The notes under the pieces: model-generated
Seen by the model: only the letters and a program-made list of their open reading frames with translations
Told to the model about the DNA's origin: nothing
Databases searched by the model: none
Assembly (NCBI GenBank): GCA_011523385.1
Contig: WTGX01000025.1
Span: forward strand, 62,001 to 126,000
Source of the DNA: Nitrospira sp.
GTDB lineage: Bacteria > Nitrospirota > Nitrospiria > Nitrospirales > UBA8639
Direction: 5' to 3'
Length of the DNA: 64,000 nt
Shown: one piece after another, positions 42,316 to 58,700 of the stretch
How positions within the stretch are numbered: the first letter of the stretch is position 1
Layout of the letters: every line of letters begins with the position of its first letter
Made by a program: the position numbers and the translations under genes

Positions 42316-42463
42316 CGCCCCCGCAGCCCAACACATTCAAGACTCTTTATTCTATAAAACCAATTTACTTTGGGTTGATAAAATCAGGACAAGAGTTGTT
42401 CATTCCATAACGCTGAGTTAAGATTTCCATGGAGTGATTCGACCTCGTGCCACGCGAGACCTG

Positions 42464-43846
42464 ATGGCCAAACCAGTCCCTCACGACGTTTCTCTTATCG
42501 CCGACCCGATTCATCATTACATTCAATTTACAGTTCCCCAATCCTCACCGGGCTCAAACGAAATCACCGAAAAAGATCTGATTGATTCTCCCTGGCTCCA
42601 ACGCCTTCGGTACATCTATCAATTGCAAAGCGCACGATGGGTCTATCCGGCAGCGGAACACAGCCGGTTTCAGCATTCACTGGGCGCCATGCATCTGGCC
42701 GGGCAATATGCCAAGCACGTGTACCCCAGCCTGGCCCAAACGGTTCGTGACGTTCCCTCCCTCCCCTACGTCGAAGCGTTGCTCAGGATCACCGCCCTAC
42801 TCCACGACGTAGGACACGGTCCCTTTTGTCATTTTTTCGATCACCATTTTCTTCACCGATACGGGTTGTCTCACGAACACGTCAGTCAGGCCATTATTCG
42901 TCATGAAGTCGGCTCCCAAATCAAGCAAGTCCGCCGGAGTCCTTCAGGAACGTTGGCAGACCATGAAACACTCGACCCCGAGTACGTGGCGTTTCTGATC
43001 CTCAAAGAGCCTGACAAGCAGAATCGACGTTATCCCCGGTGGCTGCAACTGCTTCGACCGTTAATCGGAGGACTGTTCACCGCGGATAACTTCGATTACG
43101 TCCTGCGCGACTCCTACATGTGTGGGGTCGCGATCGGACCCGTGGATATTCCCCGGTTGATCCATTACACCCTGATCACGCCAAAGGGGTTGACCATTCA
43201 CAAGAACGGATTGCCCGCCCTCCAGATGTTCCTCAACGCCAGGCTCTATCTTTATGCCAACGTATATTATCACCGCACCTCACGCGCCATCGATCTCCAT
43301 CTCCTGGAGATTTTCCACGAAACGATGGAATGTATTTTCCCTTATAACCCCCTGCAACACATGCACCACTATCTTCGACTCACGGATTGGTCGTTGCTGG
43401 AAACGGTCCGCGCCTGGGAATCGTCAACAAATCGAAAAAGACGACGGATCGGAGAAGAATGGGCCCGTGTATTGGGACGACAAATCAAGTGGAAAACGGC
43501 GTACAGCAGGGTGCTGACGATGCGAGACTGCCGTCCACGAGGACCGGCGGCGACACCGGAGAAGCTGGAATCCCGCATTCGTCAACAATTACCTCGACGA
43601 CTGCGAGGGCTGACGTTTCGAGTGGACATCGCCAGCAAGGACACCCGGCCCTTCAACGTGTTGAACATGGGCCAATTTCAGTTTTATCTCTACGATCCCG
43701 CAACCGGGTCCGTTGAAAAGGAAAAACTTCAAGAGCTTCTTGAATTTTTACCCTCGCAGATTGTCCAACTCCGAATCTTTGCCGAAGATCATCAGGCCGA
43801 TGCCGCCTTAGCCATGGCAACCGAACAAGTCCTTCGGAAACGATGA
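42464..43846 (+). CDS. HD-domain phosphohydrolase (dGTPase/SAMHD1-like)
   Basis: 460 aa from the ATG at 42464; a GTG at 42434 is also in frame. The HD catalytic set is visible: RLRYIYQLQSARWVYPAAEH with RFQHSLG (first His), LLHDVGHGPF (His-Asp pair) and the distal DNFDYVLRDS (final Asp). The rest is helical, ending with a small alpha/beta tail. This family includes dNTP triphosphohydrolases and SAMHD1-like proteins; the substrate here is unknown. The gene lies about 150 bases after the DUF2062 gene and is convergent with lptD. Confidence 0.85.
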   Translation: MAKPVPHDVSLIADPIHHYIQFTVPQSSPGSNEITEKDLIDSPWLQRLRYIYQLQSARWVYPAAEHSRFQHSLGAMHLAGQYAKHVYPSLAQTVRDVPSLPYVEALLRITALLHDVGHGPFCHFFDHHFLHRYGLSHEHVSQAIIRHEVGSQIKQVRRSPSGTLADHETLDPEYVAFLILKEPDKQNRRYPRWLQLLRPLIGGLFTADNFDYVLRDSYMCGVAIGPVDIPRLIHYTLITPKGLTIHKNGLPALQMFLNARLYLYANVYYHRTSRAIDLHLLEIFHETMECIFPYNPLQHMHHYLRLTDWSLLETVRAWESSTNRKRRRIGEEWARVLGRQIKWKTAYSRVLTMRDCRPRGPAATPEKLESRIRQQLPRRLRGLTFRVDIASKDTRPFNVLNMGQFQFYLYDPATGSVEKEKLQELLEFLPSQIVQLRIFAEDHQADAALAMATEQVLRKR

Positions 43847-51990: not shown

Positions 51991-52833
51991 ATGGCACGCA
52001 TCGATCTTCACCTGCACACCCGCTACTCCGACGGCAGCCTGATGCCCGGGGAGGTCGTAGACCTGGCCCGTCAAGCAGGCGTCACGGCCCTGGCCATCAC
52101 GGATCACGACATCGTGGACGGCATTCCTCACGCCATGGAGGCCGCCACGCCGCTGGGCATCGAAATCATTCCCGGCGTCGAGTTGAGTTCCCGCCTGGAC
52201 GGACAAGAACTCCACGTCCTCGGCTATTTCTTCGACTGGCAGGATCCGGTCTTCCGGGATCACTTGGCTCAACAGCGTCTTTCCCGAAACGTCAGAATTC
52301 CCCGGACCATCGAACGGCTGAACGCCTTGGGGCTTGAACTGTCCGAGGACGAAGTCAGGGCCAAGGCCGGCTGCGGTTCCATCGGTCGCCCGCACGTCGC
52401 GCAGGTGTTGGTTGACAAGGGATACGTTCAGGATACCCGGGAAGCCTTCGAGCGATACTTGAAAGAAGGGGCCCCGGCCTATGTGCCGCGGGCGCTCTCC
52501 GACACACGGGACGTCATCGCCTGGCTTCGCAATGCGGGCGGCGTTCCGGTTCTGGCACACCCGACGTGGACCCTGTGTCGAGGAAAGCCCCTGTACCGCT
52601 TGTGTGCCTGCCTAAAGGAAGCCGGGTTGTTGGGCCTGGAAGTATTCTACAGCACCCATACGCGGACGCAAACGTCCCGGTATCTTGAAATGGCCAAACG
52701 ATTGGGCCTGCTGATGACCGGCGGCAGCGATTTCCACGGAGCGACAAACCCGGGCATTCAAGTGGGCCGAGGCAAGGGAAATCTCAAAGTACCGGACACG
52801 CTATTGGACCCCCTCCGACGCGCCGCCCGATAG
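51991..52833 (+). CDS. PHP-domain phosphoesterase (TrpH/RNase AM-like)
   Basis: 280 aa. The PHP motifs are complete: DLHLHTRYSDG (motif 1), TDHD (motif 2), ELS-HVLGYFFDW region with HVLGY (motif 3) and VLAHPTW and GSDFHG (motif 4), which bind a trinuclear metal centre. Proteins of this type (TrpH, YciV) hydrolyse nucleotide 3',5'-bisphosphates or trim RNA 5' ends. It ends 15 bases before the left edge of the accessory island. The ATG at 51991 is followed by the expected start (ARIDLHLH). Confidence 0.9.
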   Translation: MARIDLHLHTRYSDGSLMPGEVVDLARQAGVTALAITDHDIVDGIPHAMEAATPLGIEIIPGVELSSRLDGQELHVLGYFFDWQDPVFRDHLAQQRLSRNVRIPRTIERLNALGLELSEDEVRAKAGCGSIGRPHVAQVLVDKGYVQDTREAFERYLKEGAPAYVPRALSDTRDVIAWLRNAGGVPVLAHPTWTLCRGKPLYRLCACLKEAGLLGLEVFYSTHTRTQTSRYLEMAKRLGLLMTGGSDFHGATNPGIQVGRGKGNLKVPDTLLDPLRRAAR

Positions 52834-52847
52834 GGGTCCGGACACCT

Positions 52848-52908
52848 GCTAATTTTCCGGGGCCTCGACGATGTGGTTTTCGAAGCGGGTACACCCTTCG
52901 GTCAGCAA
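52848..52908. repeat. Left 61-bp direct repeat (displaced 3' gene end, island border)
   Basis: 56 of 61 bases match 57686-57746. Read on the minus strand it encodes LLTEGCTRFENHIVEAPEN with a stop, the same C-terminus as the gene at 57687. It is taken as the original gene end, displaced by insertion of the island. Confidence 0.85.
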
Positions 52909-53009
52909 GCTGTCAACGGGGCGTCATAAATAATTTCGGAACCTCTGATTTATTGCCCTATCGGGCGCATGGTTGCGTTGTGTCCTCGTTCAACCTTCAC
53001 TTTCCGCCA

Positions 53010-53169
53010 TGCTGGGCTGGATGCCTCCGCATTCAAGTCACTTCGGAAGGTACGAGAAATCACTCGCCACTGGATCACAGCATACAATGAGGACCACCCT
53101 CATAACAGCTTGGGAAGCATACCTCCTGCCATGTTCAGACGGCATGTCGAAAAAACCAGAAATTCTATT
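53010..53169 (+). pseudogene. IS3-family transposase C-terminal remnant
   Basis: A stretch reading SLRKVREITRHWITAYNE then DHPHNSLGSIPPAMFRRHVE is the C-terminal end of an IS3-type DDE integrase (pattern W-x3-YNxxRPHxSLGxxPP). Only this end remains; the catalytic DDE part and inverted repeats were not found. The left end is not clear. Confidence 0.7.
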
Positions 53170-53243
53170 TTAGAATTGTCTCATTGGCAGGAAAACTTAC
53201 ACTTAAATTTCAGGAAACTTGTGAAAATCTGTGTAGTGACGGA

Positions 53244-54179
53244 TCAAAATATTACAGCCCGGTGGATCGGATGAGTCGAATCGAACGTACTCTCGAACAC
53301 CTTCAGCAATTCCCTTGTGAAGTGATGCCCTTTGTTCTTGATCGCTCGAAAGGTTCGATCATCTCGATTCCCAATCTCCAACTTCTCCAAGTGTTTTCTG
53401 GTTTCAAGGTCTTCCAGTTTTTCTAGAAAAAAGTTATAGCTGGTTAGAACCGGCTCCATTGCAGCTTTACCGCATATCTTTATCATTCGTTCCATCACGG
53501 GACGGTCGAACAAGCCCTCCAGTATCTCGATCTTTTCGTCCCGTGCACGATCAGCCGTCATGGCAATGCTGAACAGGCCACTCGCGTAGAGAAGCTTCCG
53601 AGAGAAAACAAGCTTGATGTTCCGGATTGCCCACGGCTTCGGTTCACCGCTTCCGGAGGTCTTGAACTCGTAATCGACCGCTACGGTACGGTAGTACCTG
53701 ATGATGTCATTGAGCAGAAACAGCGCCAACTGATGATCCGTCATGCCTTCTCCAATATAGCGCTCAAGTATCTCTCGTCGGAAACTTCGCAGTCCTTCTT
53801 TGTTGAACAGCCACTCCCCTTCAAGGAGCAACAATATTCGCCGCGTGATGTTCTTGTTGCTGTCGTCGTCTCCTCCGATGTTGGCAAGAATTTCGCTTCG
53901 ATTGACTGTCGCACCAAAGGCACCACCTTCCGATGGACTATTGGGAACAATGCTGCGGATTTCGGAACGAACGCGCTCGTTCAGGTCAGGGGCCGTTTCT
54001 GTATCGTCGGACACCATGACGTAGTCGATATCCGATTGCTCTGACGCCTCACCCCGTGCATATGATCCACAACAAACCAGTAAGGCCGCGTTGTCAAGCG
54101 ATAACTCTTTGAGTCGATCTCTGATTTTAGAAAGCTGGCACTTGGAATATTCCAAACTGTGTTCATACGGCGTCGTCAT
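53244..54179 (-). CDS. Nucleotidyltransferase (MNT-like) paired with an HD protein
   Basis: 311 aa. The N-terminal nucleotidyltransferase core is clear: CGSYARGEASEQSDIDYVMV (GS-x10-D-x-D), which would bind two metals, followed by NRSEILANIGGDDD and NITRRILLLLEGEWLFNKE. The C-terminal half is helical with FLLNDIIRYYRT and a second helical block. The ATG at 54179 lies 17 bases inside the upstream HD gene, so the two are coupled in translation. It may transfer a nucleotide to RNA, protein or another nucleotide. HEPN toxin domains are not obvious. An antiphage or toxin-antitoxin function is inferred from the location. Confidence 0.8.
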   Translation of the reverse strand: MTTPYEHSLEYSKCQLSKIRDRLKELSLDNAALLVCCGSYARGEASEQSDIDYVMVSDDTETAPDLNERVRSEIRSIVPNSPSEGGAFGATVNRSEILANIGGDDDSNKNITRRILLLLEGEWLFNKEGLRSFRREILERYIGEGMTDHQLALFLLNDIIRYYRTVAVDYEFKTSGSGEPKPWAIRNIKLVFSRKLLYASGLFSIAMTADRARDEKIEILEGLFDRPVMERMIKICGKAAMEPVLTSYNFFLEKLEDLETRKHLEKLEIGNRDDRTFRAIKNKGHHFTRELLKVFESTFDSTHPIHRAVIF

Positions 54180-55257
54180 AGAACAAAACTCCCTGCGAAC
54201 CGGTCACAGCTTTAACCGCCGAATCGATCTTCATCTTCAACGTCAAAATATGTTTGCTACGACTGTGTCGATAACGAACATCGTCTTGTCGAGAAAAAAA
54301 ATCTCCTTCTCGGTCGATATAATAGTTGCGAAATACGTAGCAGACAGGTTCGTCGACCATGCGAATGACTTCGGCTTTGAACGAACGGCTCGTGAGCAAT
54401 TCTCTTAATCCCGGCAGTTGTTGAAACAGCTTGGTTTCGGTGCCGAAAAAAGACGTGCATTTAATTCGATCAAGATTCTTCCGAAGAAATGTCTTGCATG
54501 CAAAATCAGAAAGAACAGAATCTTCGGAATTTATAATCTCTTTATAGACCCAATCTTTACATTTCCAAAACGCATCTACGATATTCTTGTCTTTCTCGTT
54601 TTCTCGTTTTATTGCTGCATCCGTCACAATGTCCGGACTGGAGGCGCTGGGAGTTCTTCGTATGTATCTGTAGGAACGGAGGATACCTTCAATCGTGTCA
54701 AAATTGATCGGACCATGAAAGAAACCATCGAAGCTCGTGACCTCTCCGGAAACAACAGCAACCAATTCTTCAACATCTACACCATAGCGCCGAAGAATCG
54801 AAAAGACGTTCTTGCCGAGAGGCTTCCGACCGCAAATGATGTCCTTCGACGCAGTATGATGATCTATTCCGAATTTCTCTCTGAAAACGGATTCCACGGA
54901 ATGCGACAGCGGGGGATGGCCGATATCGTGCAGGAGGGCAGCTGCACACAGCAAGCGGCGCTCAGATCGCCGTATGTGGCGCCTGAGGCAGTACAGACGT
55001 GCCAACTGCATGACCCCGAGACTGTGCTCGTAGCGAGAGTAGCGGATTGCGCCGAGTTTGCCGTTTGGCCGAGGGATTAGGCAATAGTCGATGGCTCCGA
55101 GAAAACGAATATCCTTCAGACGCTGGAAGGCCTGAGTGTCGATAAGTTCCATCAGCAACGGATCTTTATCGGTTGCTGCAAGGAGGTCGGTCGGCTCACG
55201 GAAGCCATGTATCACCGATGGCGTTGATATGTCGAGTTGCGCTGACAAAACGGTCAT
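54163..55257 (-). CDS. HD-domain phosphohydrolase (SAMHD1-like), island gene
   Basis: 364 aa from the ATG at 55257; the frame runs upstream without a start that has good context. The HD set is intact: RLKDIRFLGAIDYCLI, RYSRYEHSLGVMQLARLYCL (first His), AALLHDIGHPPLSHSVESVF (His-Asp) and INFDTIEGILRSYRYI (last Asp). This is the dGTPase/SAMHD1 fold that removes triphosphate from dNTPs, or degrades other nucleotides. It is followed by, and overlaps, the nucleotidyltransferase gene. Compared with the HD gene at 42464 it has a different C-terminal part. Together the pair could make and remove a nucleotide product, or deplete nucleotides in infected cells. Confidence 0.82.
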   Translation of the reverse strand: MTVLSAQLDISTPSVIHGFREPTDLLAATDKDPLLMELIDTQAFQRLKDIRFLGAIDYCLIPRPNGKLGAIRYSRYEHSLGVMQLARLYCLRRHIRRSERRLLCAAALLHDIGHPPLSHSVESVFREKFGIDHHTASKDIICGRKPLGKNVFSILRRYGVDVEELVAVVSGEVTSFDGFFHGPINFDTIEGILRSYRYIRRTPSASSPDIVTDAAIKRENEKDKNIVDAFWKCKDWVYKEIINSEDSVLSDFACKTFLRKNLDRIKCTSFFGTETKLFQQLPGLRELLTSRSFKAEVIRMVDEPVCYVFRNYYIDREGDFFSRQDDVRYRHSRSKHILTLKMKIDSAVKAVTGSQGVLFYDDAV

Positions 55258-55347
55258 CACCAAGAATATCGTTGTCTGTCGCGAACCCGTGGTGCCACCA
55301 TATCTGACATCCAATGATGACTGTGTGAGAGGCTCATGACTATCTTG

Positions 55348-55370
55348 GAGTATTCCGATTCCGAATACTC
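55348..55370. promoter_or_regulatory. Inverted repeat upstream of the HD-nucleotidyltransferase pair
   Basis: GAGTATTC (55348-55355) and GAATACTC (55363-55370), a perfect 8-bp inverted repeat with a 7-base spacer, about 90 bases before the HD start codon. It may be an operator. Confidence 0.45.
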
Positions 55371-55860
55371 GCGGCCAAAATCCAGAGTACAAGGGCGAAA
55401 TCAAACTGGGCGACAAGGTTTCGTAGCTACGGCATAGGGCTTCGGATACGATACAGTCGAACTGACAGTCCTGAAGGACGAAGACTACAACGAGGTACTA
55501 TTCCAAACCGAGTGGCTTATGAAGATCTTTGGCCGCGTAGAGCCGCGTGGACCCCGATATCAAGGCAGAAAGGACCACCAACAACGATAGAGTTATAATA
55601 GTAGTGTCTATCATTTCCATGTGTCAAGCGAAACCACTCCGCGCTCCTCGACGACCACTAGCGTCTTGACTTGACGTCGCGCCCTGCTGCAGCCACCTCG
55701 ATAAGAACCAAGGGCGACTGAAAGACTGCACCCACTGCTAGGGCGCAGCCAAGCTTTCCGCGTCATGCGCCGCCGCACCCGTCACCCTGAAACCCACGCA
55801 GTTCAGTCCGGGGTGCCAAGGCACGACTCGGAGAACGGTGTGGTTGCTCGAAGGCCGCGA
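55371..55860. other. Decayed stretch without an intact gene
   Basis: No sizeable frame with coherent protein content. A short stretch (about 55440-55590, plus) reads DTVELTVLKDEDYN and FQTEWLMKIFGRV between stops and looks like a broken gene I cannot identify. Confidence 0.4.
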
Positions 55861-55864
55861 TTTT

Positions 55865-56338
55865 GTTATGGAGGGTGTTCCCCGTACCCCTCGAAGGAGC
55901 GAAAGACCTGTGGGAACGGGATAAGTATCACTTTCAAAATGGGCGTGGAGCAGGTGGACGGGTTTGTCACGACGCGTCGGTCCGGTGATGGCGGGATTGC
56001 CGGACGACTCTATTTTGTCGACGCATAAGCAGGAACTCCAAAGCATGGTGATCGAAGTGAAAGGCGGGAAACACGTCACCTTGAATCAAGTCATGGCCTT
56101 ACGGGGGTCTTAGAGCGTGAAGAGGCAGCCATGGCCGGATTGATCCTCATGGAGAAACCTGGCCTGACCCAGTTACGCAATTTTCGACGGGAGTTTTCCA
56201 AAGCCTGGAGCTTGGAAGTCCTAGGGGTCTCCTACCCTCGAATGCAAATGCTGACGGTTCGGGAAATCCTTATAGGCAAACACTTTCAGACCCCAACCGT
56301 GGCTGGCCGGAAGGCCGCGCAACCGGGGCTGTTTGGAT
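55865..56338 (+). pseudogene. Frameshifted C-terminus of a DNA methyltransferase (type III/Mod-like)
   Basis: Blocks characteristic of the C-terminal nuclease-like tail of site-specific adenine methyltransferases occur in order but in different frames: LEGAKDLWERDKYHFQ, then VEQVDGFVTTRRSGDGGIAGRLYF, then VIEVKGGKHVTLNQVMALRG, then VLEREEAAMAGLILMEKP and SYPRMQMLTVREILIGK. At least three shifts break the gene. The catalytic methyltransferase part is missing. It is a relic of an RM system in the island. Confidence 0.75.
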
Positions 56339-56355
56339 AGCATAGAAGAAACCCT

Positions 56356-56463
56356 ATGTCCGTGATGCAAGACATTAACTGGAAGCACGCCATTTTGTTC
56401 TGGCTTGCGGGTTTGGCTGTTGTTATCGTGCTTAGAGCCAGTTATGCAAAGGGGCGAACCTGA
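56356..56463 (+). CDS. Possible 35-aa single-span membrane peptide
   Basis: 35 codons, ATG to TGA: a charged start (MSVMQDINWKHA), one hydrophobic span (ILFWLAGLAVVIVL) and a basic end (RASYAKGRT). It overlaps the next gene by 20 bases. The ribosome site is weak. Toxin-like small membrane peptides have this shape, but this is only a possibility. Confidence 0.35.
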   Translation: MSVMQDINWKHAILFWLAGLAVVIVLRASYAKGRT

Positions 56464-56764
56464 AAACCCGCAAATCCTAGGAATGGAGTTTTCCTTAGAA
56501 CGCGGGAACAAGCAGTTTTGGGTGAGACGGATTGAGACCAAAGACCCAACACTCGAAATGACTCAGTACGGGCGGATTCTTCGCAAGCCCTATTACGTTT
56601 GCCAGACCTACCCTGAGGTCATGGCCAAAGACAAGAATGAGGAATCTGAGTTTTGGGGGCCACCGAGGTATCGAACGAAACAGGAAGCCGCCGAAAGGTG
56701 TATGGACCGATATTTCAGGGGCCTCGATCTTGAATTTGAGGGATCGACCTTAAATCCAACCTGA
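56444..56764 (+). CDS. Small unknown protein of the island
   Basis: 106 aa from the ATG at 56444 (ATG at 56483 also possible). A soluble, charged protein with a strand-rich middle (EFSLERGNKQFWVRRIET, ILRKPYYVCQTYPEVMAKD) and a C-terminal helix (RTKQEAAERCMDRYFRGL). No domain is recognised. It precedes another small gene by 7 bases, so the two are likely an operon. Confidence 0.45.
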   Translation: MQRGEPENPQILGMEFSLERGNKQFWVRRIETKDPTLEMTQYGRILRKPYYVCQTYPEVMAKDKNEESEFWGPPRYRTKQEAAERCMDRYFRGLDLEFEGSTLNPT

Positions 56765-56771
56765 AACACCT

Positions 56772-57101
56772 ATGCCAGACAAACGACCAGAGCAATTACC
56801 GCTCCTGCCAGAACATACACCCAACGATTTGCAGGAATGTTCGGGACCGCTTCTAGTTTACCGTGCCATTCTCTACGATCTGACCGGCTATTTACTGCAA
56901 CATGCCTCAGATAAAGAGCTGGTCGAACAGTATGGTAGAAACTGCGTGAAAGCTTTTGCCGACGATGGCACTGGCATTATGGCAAAGGGGGCAGTAGTTG
57001 CTCCAACATCGGACTGGCATAAGATCGCACAAGGCATTGAGAAGGCACGGCTAGATTTCCTTCGCATTCTCGATCACCTCAAGCAAGCCCATAACGTATA
57101 A
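56772..57101 (+). CDS. Small unknown helical protein of the island
   Basis: 109 aa, ATG 7 bases after the preceding stop. Opening MPDKRPEQLPLLPEHTP is extended, then helical: GPLLVYRAILYDLTGYLLQH, CVKAFADDGTGIMAKGAVV and IEKARLDFLRILDHLKQA. No motif is recognised. A partner of the previous gene, perhaps a toxin-antitoxin-like pair, is conceivable but unsupported. Confidence 0.45.
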   Translation: MPDKRPEQLPLLPEHTPNDLQECSGPLLVYRAILYDLTGYLLQHASDKELVEQYGRNCVKAFADDGTGIMAKGAVVAPTSDWHKIAQGIEKARLDFLRILDHLKQAHNV

Positions 57102-57207
57102 CTGCCATTATTTTTTTGGCGAACCGGGACAGACGGGGTCCAGTCACAGGATATACAAAACGCCGTGACAAGGCGACCCTCGCGTGAACATCCAAAATGC
57201 CAGGGGC

Positions 57208-57273
57208 ATGGCCAAACCATACCACGTCCGCCAGGTTCTGCGGGCGATAGCTCGTTTGGAGGCTGAATCATGA
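57208..57273 (+). CDS. 21-aa peptide coupled to hicB (possible HicA relic)
   Basis: ATG (57208) to TGA overlapping the hicB ATG: MAKPYHVRQVLRAIARLEAES. The AKPYHVRQVLRAI opening resembles the first helix of some HicA toxins, but the double-stranded-RNA-binding core with its His is absent. It may be the residue of a deleted toxin gene, or just a leader peptide. Confidence 0.35.
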   Translation: MAKPYHVRQVLRAIARLEAES

Positions 57274-57596
57274 GCAAAACATATGATCGTTACACGTACC
57301 GGGTCACGTGGTCCGAAGAAGATCGAGAGCACGTGGGTTTATGCGCTGAATTCCCCGGCCTGAGTTGGCTTGACCCGTCACCGGAGAAGGCGCTGACGGG
57401 TGTTCGCCGGATTGTCAGGGACTGCCTCAGAGATATGCGAAGAAACAAGGAGGACGTACCCGAACCGATTGCGCTGAAAAACTACAGTGGAAAGTTTATG
57501 GTACGAGTTCCGCCGGAAACGCACCGGATGCTCTCCGTTGAGGCGGCTGAGTCCGGGGTCAGCTTAAACCGGCTGGTAGCCGGCAAATTACGATGA
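57270..57596 (+). CDS. HicB-like antitoxin
   Basis: 108 aa. The N-terminal HicB fold has YTYRVTWSEEDREHVGLCAEF then PGLSWLDPSPEKAL and IVRDCLRDMRRNKEDVPEPI; the C-terminal part is a ribbon-helix-helix DNA-binding domain (SGKFMVRVPPETHRMLSVEA, VSLNRLVAGKL). HicB neutralises HicA RNase and represses its operon. No intact hicA lies next to it, only a 21-codon frame that overlaps its ATG, so it seems to be an orphan antitoxin or a regulator. Confidence 0.85.
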   Translation: MSKTYDRYTYRVTWSEEDREHVGLCAEFPGLSWLDPSPEKALTGVRRIVRDCLRDMRRNKEDVPEPIALKNYSGKFMVRVPPETHRMLSVEAAESGVSLNRLVAGKLR

Positions 57597-57685
57597 TGCG
57601 CCCCGAGGGACGTGGAAACACGCGAACCGGACCTGTATTGAAAATCACCCGAAGGATCTGCACAATGCAGCCGCCTGCCCGGCCC

Positions 57686-57746
57686 GCTAATTTTCCGGGG
57701 CTTCGACGATGTGGTTTTCGAAGCGGGTGCAACCTTCGGCCAACAA
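57686..57746. repeat. Right 61-bp direct repeat (current gene 3' end, island border)
   Basis: Matches 52848-52908 with five differences. It is the coding end (LLAEGCTRFENHIVEAPEN) of the unknown gene on the minus strand. Confidence 0.85.
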
Positions 57747-58700
57747 CCGGTTCGTCAGCATCTCACCCGGCCATTCGATGGGCAGGTCCGCGGTAAAGAC
57801 CCAGACGTCCGGCGAGGTCCAGATCGGGCCGTGATCTTCCGGCAGATCGGGATCGAACAGATCCGTCCAGACGGGCATGTAGACCCCGTTCCCGCATTGC
57901 GTGTGTAAATGGACGATAGCCCGACTCCTGACCGGAGGATCAAGGTCATGCCAGACCGCCGCCGTTTCATCGGCCAGTCGATGGAGCCTCACCGCGTTCT
58001 GCGCGTCGAACATGCCGTACGCGGCATACACCGGCACTTCCAACATATTCGGCGCCAAGGCAATTTCAGGGCATTGCGCCATCAGACCTTGAAGCAGAGT
58101 TTCCCGTTCTTTGTCGGGAATACTTTCCGGGAGGGACGAATCTCTTGCCCCGATCAATTCAAACAGCAAAAAGGCCGTTGACTCGACGGGCGGATGGAGA
58201 CGAGCGGTAATGGGTTGCCGGCGCTGGGAACCGGCCATGCAGGACAAATGTTCGTGAAGTTGCTGAAGGGTCAGGAAATCAAGCGTCGTATCGGTCAGCA
58301 ATCGCGGTTCGACCGTCACCACGGTTCCCGGGGGAACGTGTAAACACTCCCGGAGCAGTTCCGCAGTTTTTTCCGGATGAATTTTCAAGCCGAGAGGCGC
58401 GGTCAGATTCGCCTGCAGGGGCAACTCGATTGCGCCCAAAATGGCATAGGCCGGATCGTCGTCATGATCGCTCTCGATCGACACGGAACACGCGGCCTCC
58501 GCCAACAGGTCGAACAGCCATTCGGCCATTTCTTCATCCAACGCTGCCAGGACGGTGAGCACGTCATGCTCGCGGTCCTGTTCGAGCAACGCCTGCAGGA
58601 CTTCGATGGCGAGTTCGGAATCACCGTGATCGTGCCGGCGGGCATTGATCAGGTGAATCAGGTCTCGGGTTAGGGGGTCCGGGCGATACCAACTGGACAT
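57687..58700 (-). CDS. Conserved-type protein of unknown function, island target gene
   Basis: 337 aa, no signal peptide or membrane span. The first about 80 residues are helical with LIHLINARRHDHGDSELAIEVLQALLEQ and acidic EMAEWLFDLLAE. The middle is alpha/beta (LPLQANLTAPLGLKIHPEKTAELL, VPPGTVVTVEPRLLT). The C-terminal part has VYMPVWTDLFDPDLPEDHGP and ends ENHIVEAPEN. The last 20 codons are the repeat shared with the left border, so the gene end was replaced on integration yet kept intact. Its own role is unknown. Confidence 0.7.
   Translation of the reverse strand: MSSWYRPDPLTRDLIHLINARRHDHGDSELAIEVLQALLEQDREHDVLTVLAALDEEMAEWLFDLLAEAACSVSIESDHDDDPAYAILGAIELPLQANLTAPLGLKIHPEKTAELLRECLHVPPGTVVTVEPRLLTDTTLDFLTLQQLHEHLSCMAGSQRRQPITARLHPPVESTAFLLFELIGARDSSLPESIPDKERETLLQGLMAQCPEIALAPNMLEVPVYAAYGMFDAQNAVRLHRLADETAAVWHDLDPPVRSRAIVHLHTQCGNGVYMPVWTDLFDPDLPEDHGPIWTSPDVWVFTADLPIEWPGEMLTNRLLAEGCTRFENHIVEAPEN

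Follow-up and report, generated by a model that had tools for sequence, protein, structure and literature searches.

A PDC-M70A-type nucleotidyltransferase paired with an HD phosphohydrolase in a Nitrospira insertion: a candidate conflict module

Introduction

The pairing of a dNTPase with a nucleotidyltransferase (NT) was reportedly first noted by Nicastro et al. in 2023. Clover, described in 2025 as a defence system composed of the dNTPase CloA and the nucleotidyltransferase CloB, relies on p3diT synthesis and dTTP sensing (PMC12265719). In CloA, a relative of SpdGTPase (about 33%), dGTP is contacted by Q53 and Y246; the catalytic pair of CloB is D71/D73, and the HD enzyme is the toxic part of the system with the NT as its brake (PMC12265719). 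The effectors reported next to homologues of CloB vary (PMC12265719, Extended Data Fig. 1a). In the FaRel operon (toxSAS), the synthetase is toxic, and its product is neutralised by a hydrolase, ATfaRel (PMC11782079). PADLOC also contains a candidate system, PDC-M70, formed by an NT (PDC-M70A) and a xylose-isomerase-like TIM barrel (PDC-M70B), for which no paper was found in the literature. Here we examine a pair of HD phosphohydrolase and NT genes in a 64-kb window (the whole stretch of Nitrospira DNA that was analysed), which a sequence-only reading had proposed to be an undescribed antiphage or toxin-antitoxin-like module.

Results

Organization of the gene pair

Both frames of the pair, including the 17-base overlap claimed previously, were confirmed (Table 1), and the overlap likely results in translational coupling. 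The G+C content of the HD and NT genes is 48-49%, compared with 55% for the window. The inverted repeat that had been noticed upstream of the pair is present and may be regarded as a weak candidate for an operator; it carries little weight on its own because 21 inverted repeats of equal quality occur across the 64-kb window, and its interpretation as a strong regulatory element was dropped. Four promoter-like sites were observed in the region against 2.8 expected. A non-exhaustive look at the window recognised no known defence system beside the pair.

Table 1. Features of the HD-NT locus in window coordinates
Feature	Position	Strand	Remarks
HD phosphohydrolase, SAMHD1/EF1143 branch, 364 aa	54163..55257	-	upstream member of pair; PF01966, 2o6i match
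Pol-beta-type nucleotidyltransferase (NT), 311 aa	53244..54179	-	downstream member of pair; PF01909, PDC-M70A
HD/NT frame overlap, 17 bp	54163..54179	-	translational coupling likely
Perfect 8-bp inverted repeat GAGTATTC-7 nt-GAATACTC	55348..55370		~90 bp upstream of HD start
Promoter-like TTGACA-18-TACTAT	55598..55627	-	10/12 matches; just within end of sister-conserved block
Insertion with HD-NT pair, about 4.8 kb	52914..57682		direct repeats, empty sites
Left direct repeat, 69 bp	52845..52913		duplicates 3' end of core gene 57687-58700
Right direct repeat, 69 bp	57683..57751		at 3' end of core gene 57687-58700 (-)

Insertion at the end of a core gene

The accessory island assumed from the sequence was confirmed and could be sharpened to an insertion flanked by two 69-bp direct repeats (88% identity to each other), with single-copy empty sites in sister genomes. 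The core gene whose 3' end is duplicated is present in 13 of the 14 genomes of the genus, and among these 13 a second copy of its end was found only in the genome of the window (G000) and a sister genome (G197), which share the block 53238-55637 at 95.6% identity. In G200 and G900, the gene corresponding to 51991-52833 is joined straight to the core gene with one repeat copy, representing the empty site. Three other members (G065, G227, and G081) have partly different, HicB-like cargo at the same site, and G898 contains a broken NT adjoining a HicB-like gene. No integrase was recognised within the insertion.

Several additional observations concern this region. Across the genus, the 3' end of the core gene acts as a hotspot for insertions and is either empty or occupied by HicB-like or HD-NT cargo. 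A HicB-like antitoxin-type gene lies at 57270-57596 (plus strand) and was seen in several members of the genus, some of which carry the HD-NT pair and some of which do not. A segment at about 53040-53200 (plus strand), located between the left repeat and the NT gene, resembles the C-terminal end of an IS3-family transposase (HPHNSLG), and 53085-53237, part of this transposase fragment, is absent from the sister genome.

The HD protein belongs to the SAMHD1 branch

The HD protein matches Pfam PF01966 with an E value of 1.4e-11. A profile built from NT-linked HDs has EF1143 (2o6i, E 6e-15) as its best PDB match, also hits Aquifex 2hek and SAMHD1, and only weakly resembles dGTPases (SpdGTPase 9p8w, E 2e-4). 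The structure prediction that had been suggested as a check gave a model (pLDDT 69.5, pTM 0.74) matching 2o6i with Z 25.0 and rmsd 3.5 over 301 residues, and SAMHD1 with Z 21-23. Scores against the antiphage dGTPase model NF041026 (17.7 bits, cut-off 400) and TIGR01353 (25.4 bits, cut-off 152) are far below the respective thresholds, and the former led us to reject an identity as a single-gene anti-phage dGTPase. Thus, of the previously suggested dGTPase/SAMHD1 fold, the EF1143/SAMHD1 part holds, whereas the dGTPase branch should be replaced by the SAMHD1 branch.

All four metal ligands reported before (H78, H110, D111, and D187) are present and invariant across relatives, and R75, H78, H110, D111, H114, H119, E122, and D187, including the HE catalytic dyad (H119 and E122), are intact in 7 of 7 NT-linked HDs, two of which are near-duplicates of two others, leaving five independent lineages. 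In a tree of these seven proteins and 31 free-standing relatives, the NT-linked HDs are monophyletic (support 1.0) with a long stem. SAMHD1 holds the dNTP sugar and phosphates by Q149, K312, Y315, and D319. The corresponding residues are almost always Q, K/R, Y, and D in the 31 free-standing HDs, compared with F, T/S, G, and S/T/C in all seven linked HDs (F52 at the Q149 position and G191 at the Y315 position in the window protein). Because the metal-binding and catalytic residues are intact and the four recognition positions are replaced, the alignment indicates that the catalytic centre is kept in the NT-linked clade and the canonical dNTP pocket is not. Judging from these residues, the substrate has probably changed, and an ordinary dNTPase role, including the dNTPase activity proposed earlier, appears doubtful for the linked HDs. 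Many phyla commonly contain free-standing SAMHD1-like HDs that have no NT of the PDC-M70A family nearby. The window itself encodes a second SAMHD1-like HD (42434-43846, plus strand, 470 aa; best PDB match 2hek, E 2e-31) with no NT neighbour; it offers an in-window contrast, keeping Q, Y, and D at the dNTP-contact positions and having N at the K312 position.

The NT protein matches PDC-M70A

The NT protein matches Pfam PF01909 (NTP_transf_2, E 5e-9) and, across 10-296, PADLOC PDC-M70A (PDLC04778, E 2.7e-56). Its GS-x10-D-x-D signature had been recognised before, and G38, S39, D50, and D52 are indeed invariant in homologues. Over 12 members, the invariant acidic residues are E44, D50, D52, D106, E120, and D158. 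Compared with the motif [DE]h[DE]..h[DE]h of the Clover NTase, D50 and D52 form the DhD part, the next strand has no invariant acid, and D106 and E120 are invariant. The predicted NT model is poor (pLDDT 62.5, 3 sequences); its best Foldseek matches are ANT enzymes (E 0.14), and all VIA rows are below Z 8. Because of the poor model and the weak structural matches, we make no claim on the NT fold beyond a Pol-beta core. Profile similarity to ANT enzymes is also weak (E 5e-5), and the protein stays far below the curated cut-offs of the MntA (19.4 bits, cut-off 60) and Hailong HalB (18.7 bits, cut-off 190) models.

Recurrence of the HD-NT pair

The neighbourhood search proposed earlier revealed that the pair recurs outside the genus. 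HD and NT genes are adjacent and share a strand in two further families of Nitrospirota (L045 and L084, L046), on the 4.5-kb E. coli plasmid pISHS7_5 (NZ_CP092257; one of 5,426 complete E. coli genomes), whose annotated genes are the HD, the NT, and a rop-family gene only, and on an 11.3-kb IMG/VR virus contig, where a histidine phosphatase gene follows. This contig also encodes a Zot-like protein and, judged from its sequence, resembles a filamentous phage. Identity of the distant members to the window HD and NT proteins is about 29-42%. Two findings that would have spoken against the module, namely a pair that never co-occurs elsewhere and active sites that are usually lost, are thus not what was observed: the pair recurs and its active sites are intact. 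No match was found among deposited phages. A search of about 299 Bacillota, 296 Bacteroidota, and 251 Chloroflexota genomes with the NT profile or PDC-M70A, run with no positive control, yielded none; Pseudomonadota were outside this phylum sampling, and we make no firm statement on the host range of the NT family.

Exchange of NT partners

At every locus examined for both genes (13 adjacencies), the NT gene is located -32 to +26 bp from a phosphoesterase-type gene on the same strand, with varying gene order within the pairs. In Sinorhizobium and Mesorhizobium, the partner is the TIM barrel PDC-M70B (PDLC04779, E 3e-106 and 2e-105), which is weakly like the phosphodiesterase CbiR (E 0.0018); only these partners matched PDLC04779, and the window HD did not. 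The partner is a histidine phosphatase (PF00300, E 4e-31) in Rhizobium (L050) and a 2H phosphoesterase at L048 and L089 (PF13563, E 4e-5, under the Pfam cut-off). At L047, it is a DEDDh exonuclease related to RNase T, whose match to the PADLOC "Effector, Exonuclease" model PDLC00753 (E 9e-36) suggests a link between PDC-M70A-type NTs and CBASS-associated exonucleases. The exonuclease gene at this locus (L047, 792-2484) overlaps the PDC-M70A-family NT gene by 29 bp. The fold of the partner therefore varies among HD, 2H, DEDDh, histidine phosphatase, and TIM barrel, and the type of chemistry is constant, all being phosphoesterase-type.

Phylogenetic analysis of the NT family grouped the 2H- and DEDDh-linked NTs (0.997) and the TIM-linked NTs (1.0). 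The Rhizobium NT linked to histidine phosphatase is located among HD-linked NTs (0.825), implying that partners have probably been exchanged in this family.

Defence neighbourhoods

Neighbouring genes for the defence scan were picked by eye, and the counts carry no enrichment statistic. Relatives have among their neighbours HerA (E 9e-160), SIR2 (E 6e-161), and BilD (E 7e-111) at L052, AbiEii (E 2e-44) at L051, a type II methyltransferase (E 2e-70) together with SIR2-like and DUF262-like proteins at L063, PDC-M68A/B (E 5e-80 and 2e-196) at L064, and, by reading, an AbiEii-like gene at L066. By eye, no defence genes were seen at L065 and L050: the Nitrospirota member at L065 lies among apparent core genes, and the Rhizobium locus L050 is an apparent sugar/metabolite cluster with glycosyltransferases, an aminotransferase, and MFS transporters.

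Discussion

Considering that the pair is found on a plasmid, on a viral contig, and in defence islands and that the partner is exchangeable, we regard it as a candidate anti-phage or toxin-antitoxin module. This agrees with the sequence-only reading as far as mobile elements and defence neighbourhoods are concerned; the word "undescribed" is not fully justified because the NT corresponds to PADLOC PDC-M70A and Clover shares the layout (PMC12265719). As far as the tools used here show, the following points are new: PDC-M70A can have an HD enzyme as its partner, partners of at least five phosphoesterase folds are exchanged, the pocket of a SAMHD1-branch enzyme is re-tooled, and the pair is carried by an E. 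coli plasmid of minimal size and by a viral contig.

Our preferred reading, which is tentative, is that the HD-NT pair forms a mobile write-and-erase conflict module, either anti-phage or toxin-antitoxin-like. The NT would transfer a nucleotide to a target, in the simplest case an RNA 3' end such as that of tRNA, or would form a small nucleotide product; unchecked, its product would stop growth or phage multiplication, and the co-translated HD enzyme would remove it and thereby serve as the antidote. In relatives, this antidote role would be taken by the 2H, RNase T-like DEDDh, histidine phosphatase, or CbiR-like TIM-barrel enzyme. We infer all three elements, i.e., the NT as the harmful part, its target, and the reversal of its product by the HD. 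Partner exchange fits an antidote that may be anything hydrolysing the NT product, and the viral operon of HD, NT, and histidine phosphatase is what a two-step breakdown could need. The replacement of the linked HD pocket in all seven proteins (five lineages), together with the mobile and defence settings, also favours the write-and-erase reading, for which the FaRel/ATfaRel operon may provide a precedent by analogy (PMC11782079). Against it stand the Clover operon, an analogous HD-NTase pair that works in reverse, and the metabolite-cluster and core-gene settings of L050 and L065. Moreover, partner exchange alone does not indicate erasers because CloB homologues adjoin differing effectors (PMC12265719). 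We propose with greater reserve that at least five unrelated phosphoesterase folds may have been recruited to undo one NT product and that a SAMHD1-type enzyme may have been re-tooled to that product.

A Clover-like arrangement, in which an NT signal restrains or activates an HD effector that hydrolyses nucleotides and the other partners are alternative effectors under the same signal, is possible, if somewhat doubtful. It agrees with the two-gene layout of CloA/CloB and the varying effectors adjoining CloB homologues (PMC12265719), with the intact metal ligands and HE dyad of the HD, and with the exonuclease partner that matches a PADLOC effector model. However, the HD is on the SAMHD1 branch, scoring only 17.7 bits where the antiphage dGTPase cut-off is 400, and has G and F at the positions matching Y246 and, probably, Q53 of CloA; in addition, partners of the histidine phosphatase, CbiR-like, and 2H types are unlikely to serve as effectors and have no evident sensor domain. 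The partner set and the altered pocket favour the write-and-erase reading, whereas the published precedent with the same layout favours the Clover-like one. It is unlikely that the NT is an aminoglycoside-type nucleotidyltransferase for resistance or biosynthesis, with the phosphoesterases as accessory enzymes of the same small-molecule pathway: the weak ANT similarity in profile and structure (best E 5e-5 and 0.14, respectively) and the clustering of the Rhizobium member with glycosyltransferase, aminotransferase, and MFS transporter genes would agree with it, but biosynthesis genes are missing from the remaining loci, where the pair stands by itself on a tiny plasmid, on a virus contig, or next to defence genes. 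It is very improbable that the HD is an ordinary dNTPase of the nucleotide pool that adjoins an unrelated NT by chance in an accessory island. Although SAMHD1-like HDs commonly stand alone, with no NT of the PDC-M70A family nearby, in many phyla, the same HD clade is paired with the same NT clade repeatedly, in Nitrospirota families, in E. coli, and on a virus contig, and the linked HDs are monophyletic with a replaced dNTP pocket; on recurrence and HD monophyly, this explanation was rejected.

If the write-and-erase reading is true, the family would be a defence or toxin-antitoxin family that conserves the chemistry of its antidote, not the fold, and the partner set would tell what the NT makes. 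If the Clover-like reading is true, nucleotide-regulated dNTPase defence would extend to the SAMHD1 branch, that of the human antiviral enzyme. The two readings predict opposite toxicity patterns in single-gene expression, and under either of them the pair from the E. coli plasmid allows the question to be addressed directly in a laboratory host.

Comparison with known systems

Clover resembles the window locus in being a two-gene operon of an HD hydrolase and a Pol-beta NTase, in the intact metal ligands and HE dyad, and in its mobile or defence-island setting. It differs in the branch of its HD enzyme (dGTPase for CloA, SAMHD1 for the window HD) and in the dGTP contacts Q53/Y246 of CloA, where the window HD has F/G at positions matched by spacing with CloA unaligned (Y246 is D242+4 as SAMHD1 Y315 is D311+4; the Q53 match is probable). 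The catalytic pair is D71/D73 in CloB and D50/D52 in the window NT. At seven loci opened for plasmid- or phage-borne dGTPases, no annotated NTase was found beside the dGTPase gene. A lone anti-phage dGTPase adjoining ssb was observed in a P1-like Punavirus phage (L094, 2489-3844) and a phage-plasmid-like E. coli record (L100, 2483-3836), and the gene is split into two frames in the Punavirus record.

The window NT matches PDC-M70A nearly full length, and its partner is an HD enzyme instead of PDC-M70B. MntA/HepT (type VII toxin-antitoxin) and Hailong HalB share a Pol-beta core with GS...DxD; unlike in MntA/HepT, the partner of the window NT is an HD enzyme and there is no HEPN. SAMHD1/EF1143 dNTPases have the HD fold and the metal and catalytic residues in common with the linked HDs, which are shorter, show four replaced recognition positions, and have an NT neighbour in every clade member found. 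The likeness to FaRel/ATfaRel would be one of working only, namely a nucleotide-transferring toxin and a hydrolase, there a small alarmone hydrolase antidote, that removes its product; the enzyme families are different, and no sequence kinship is claimed.
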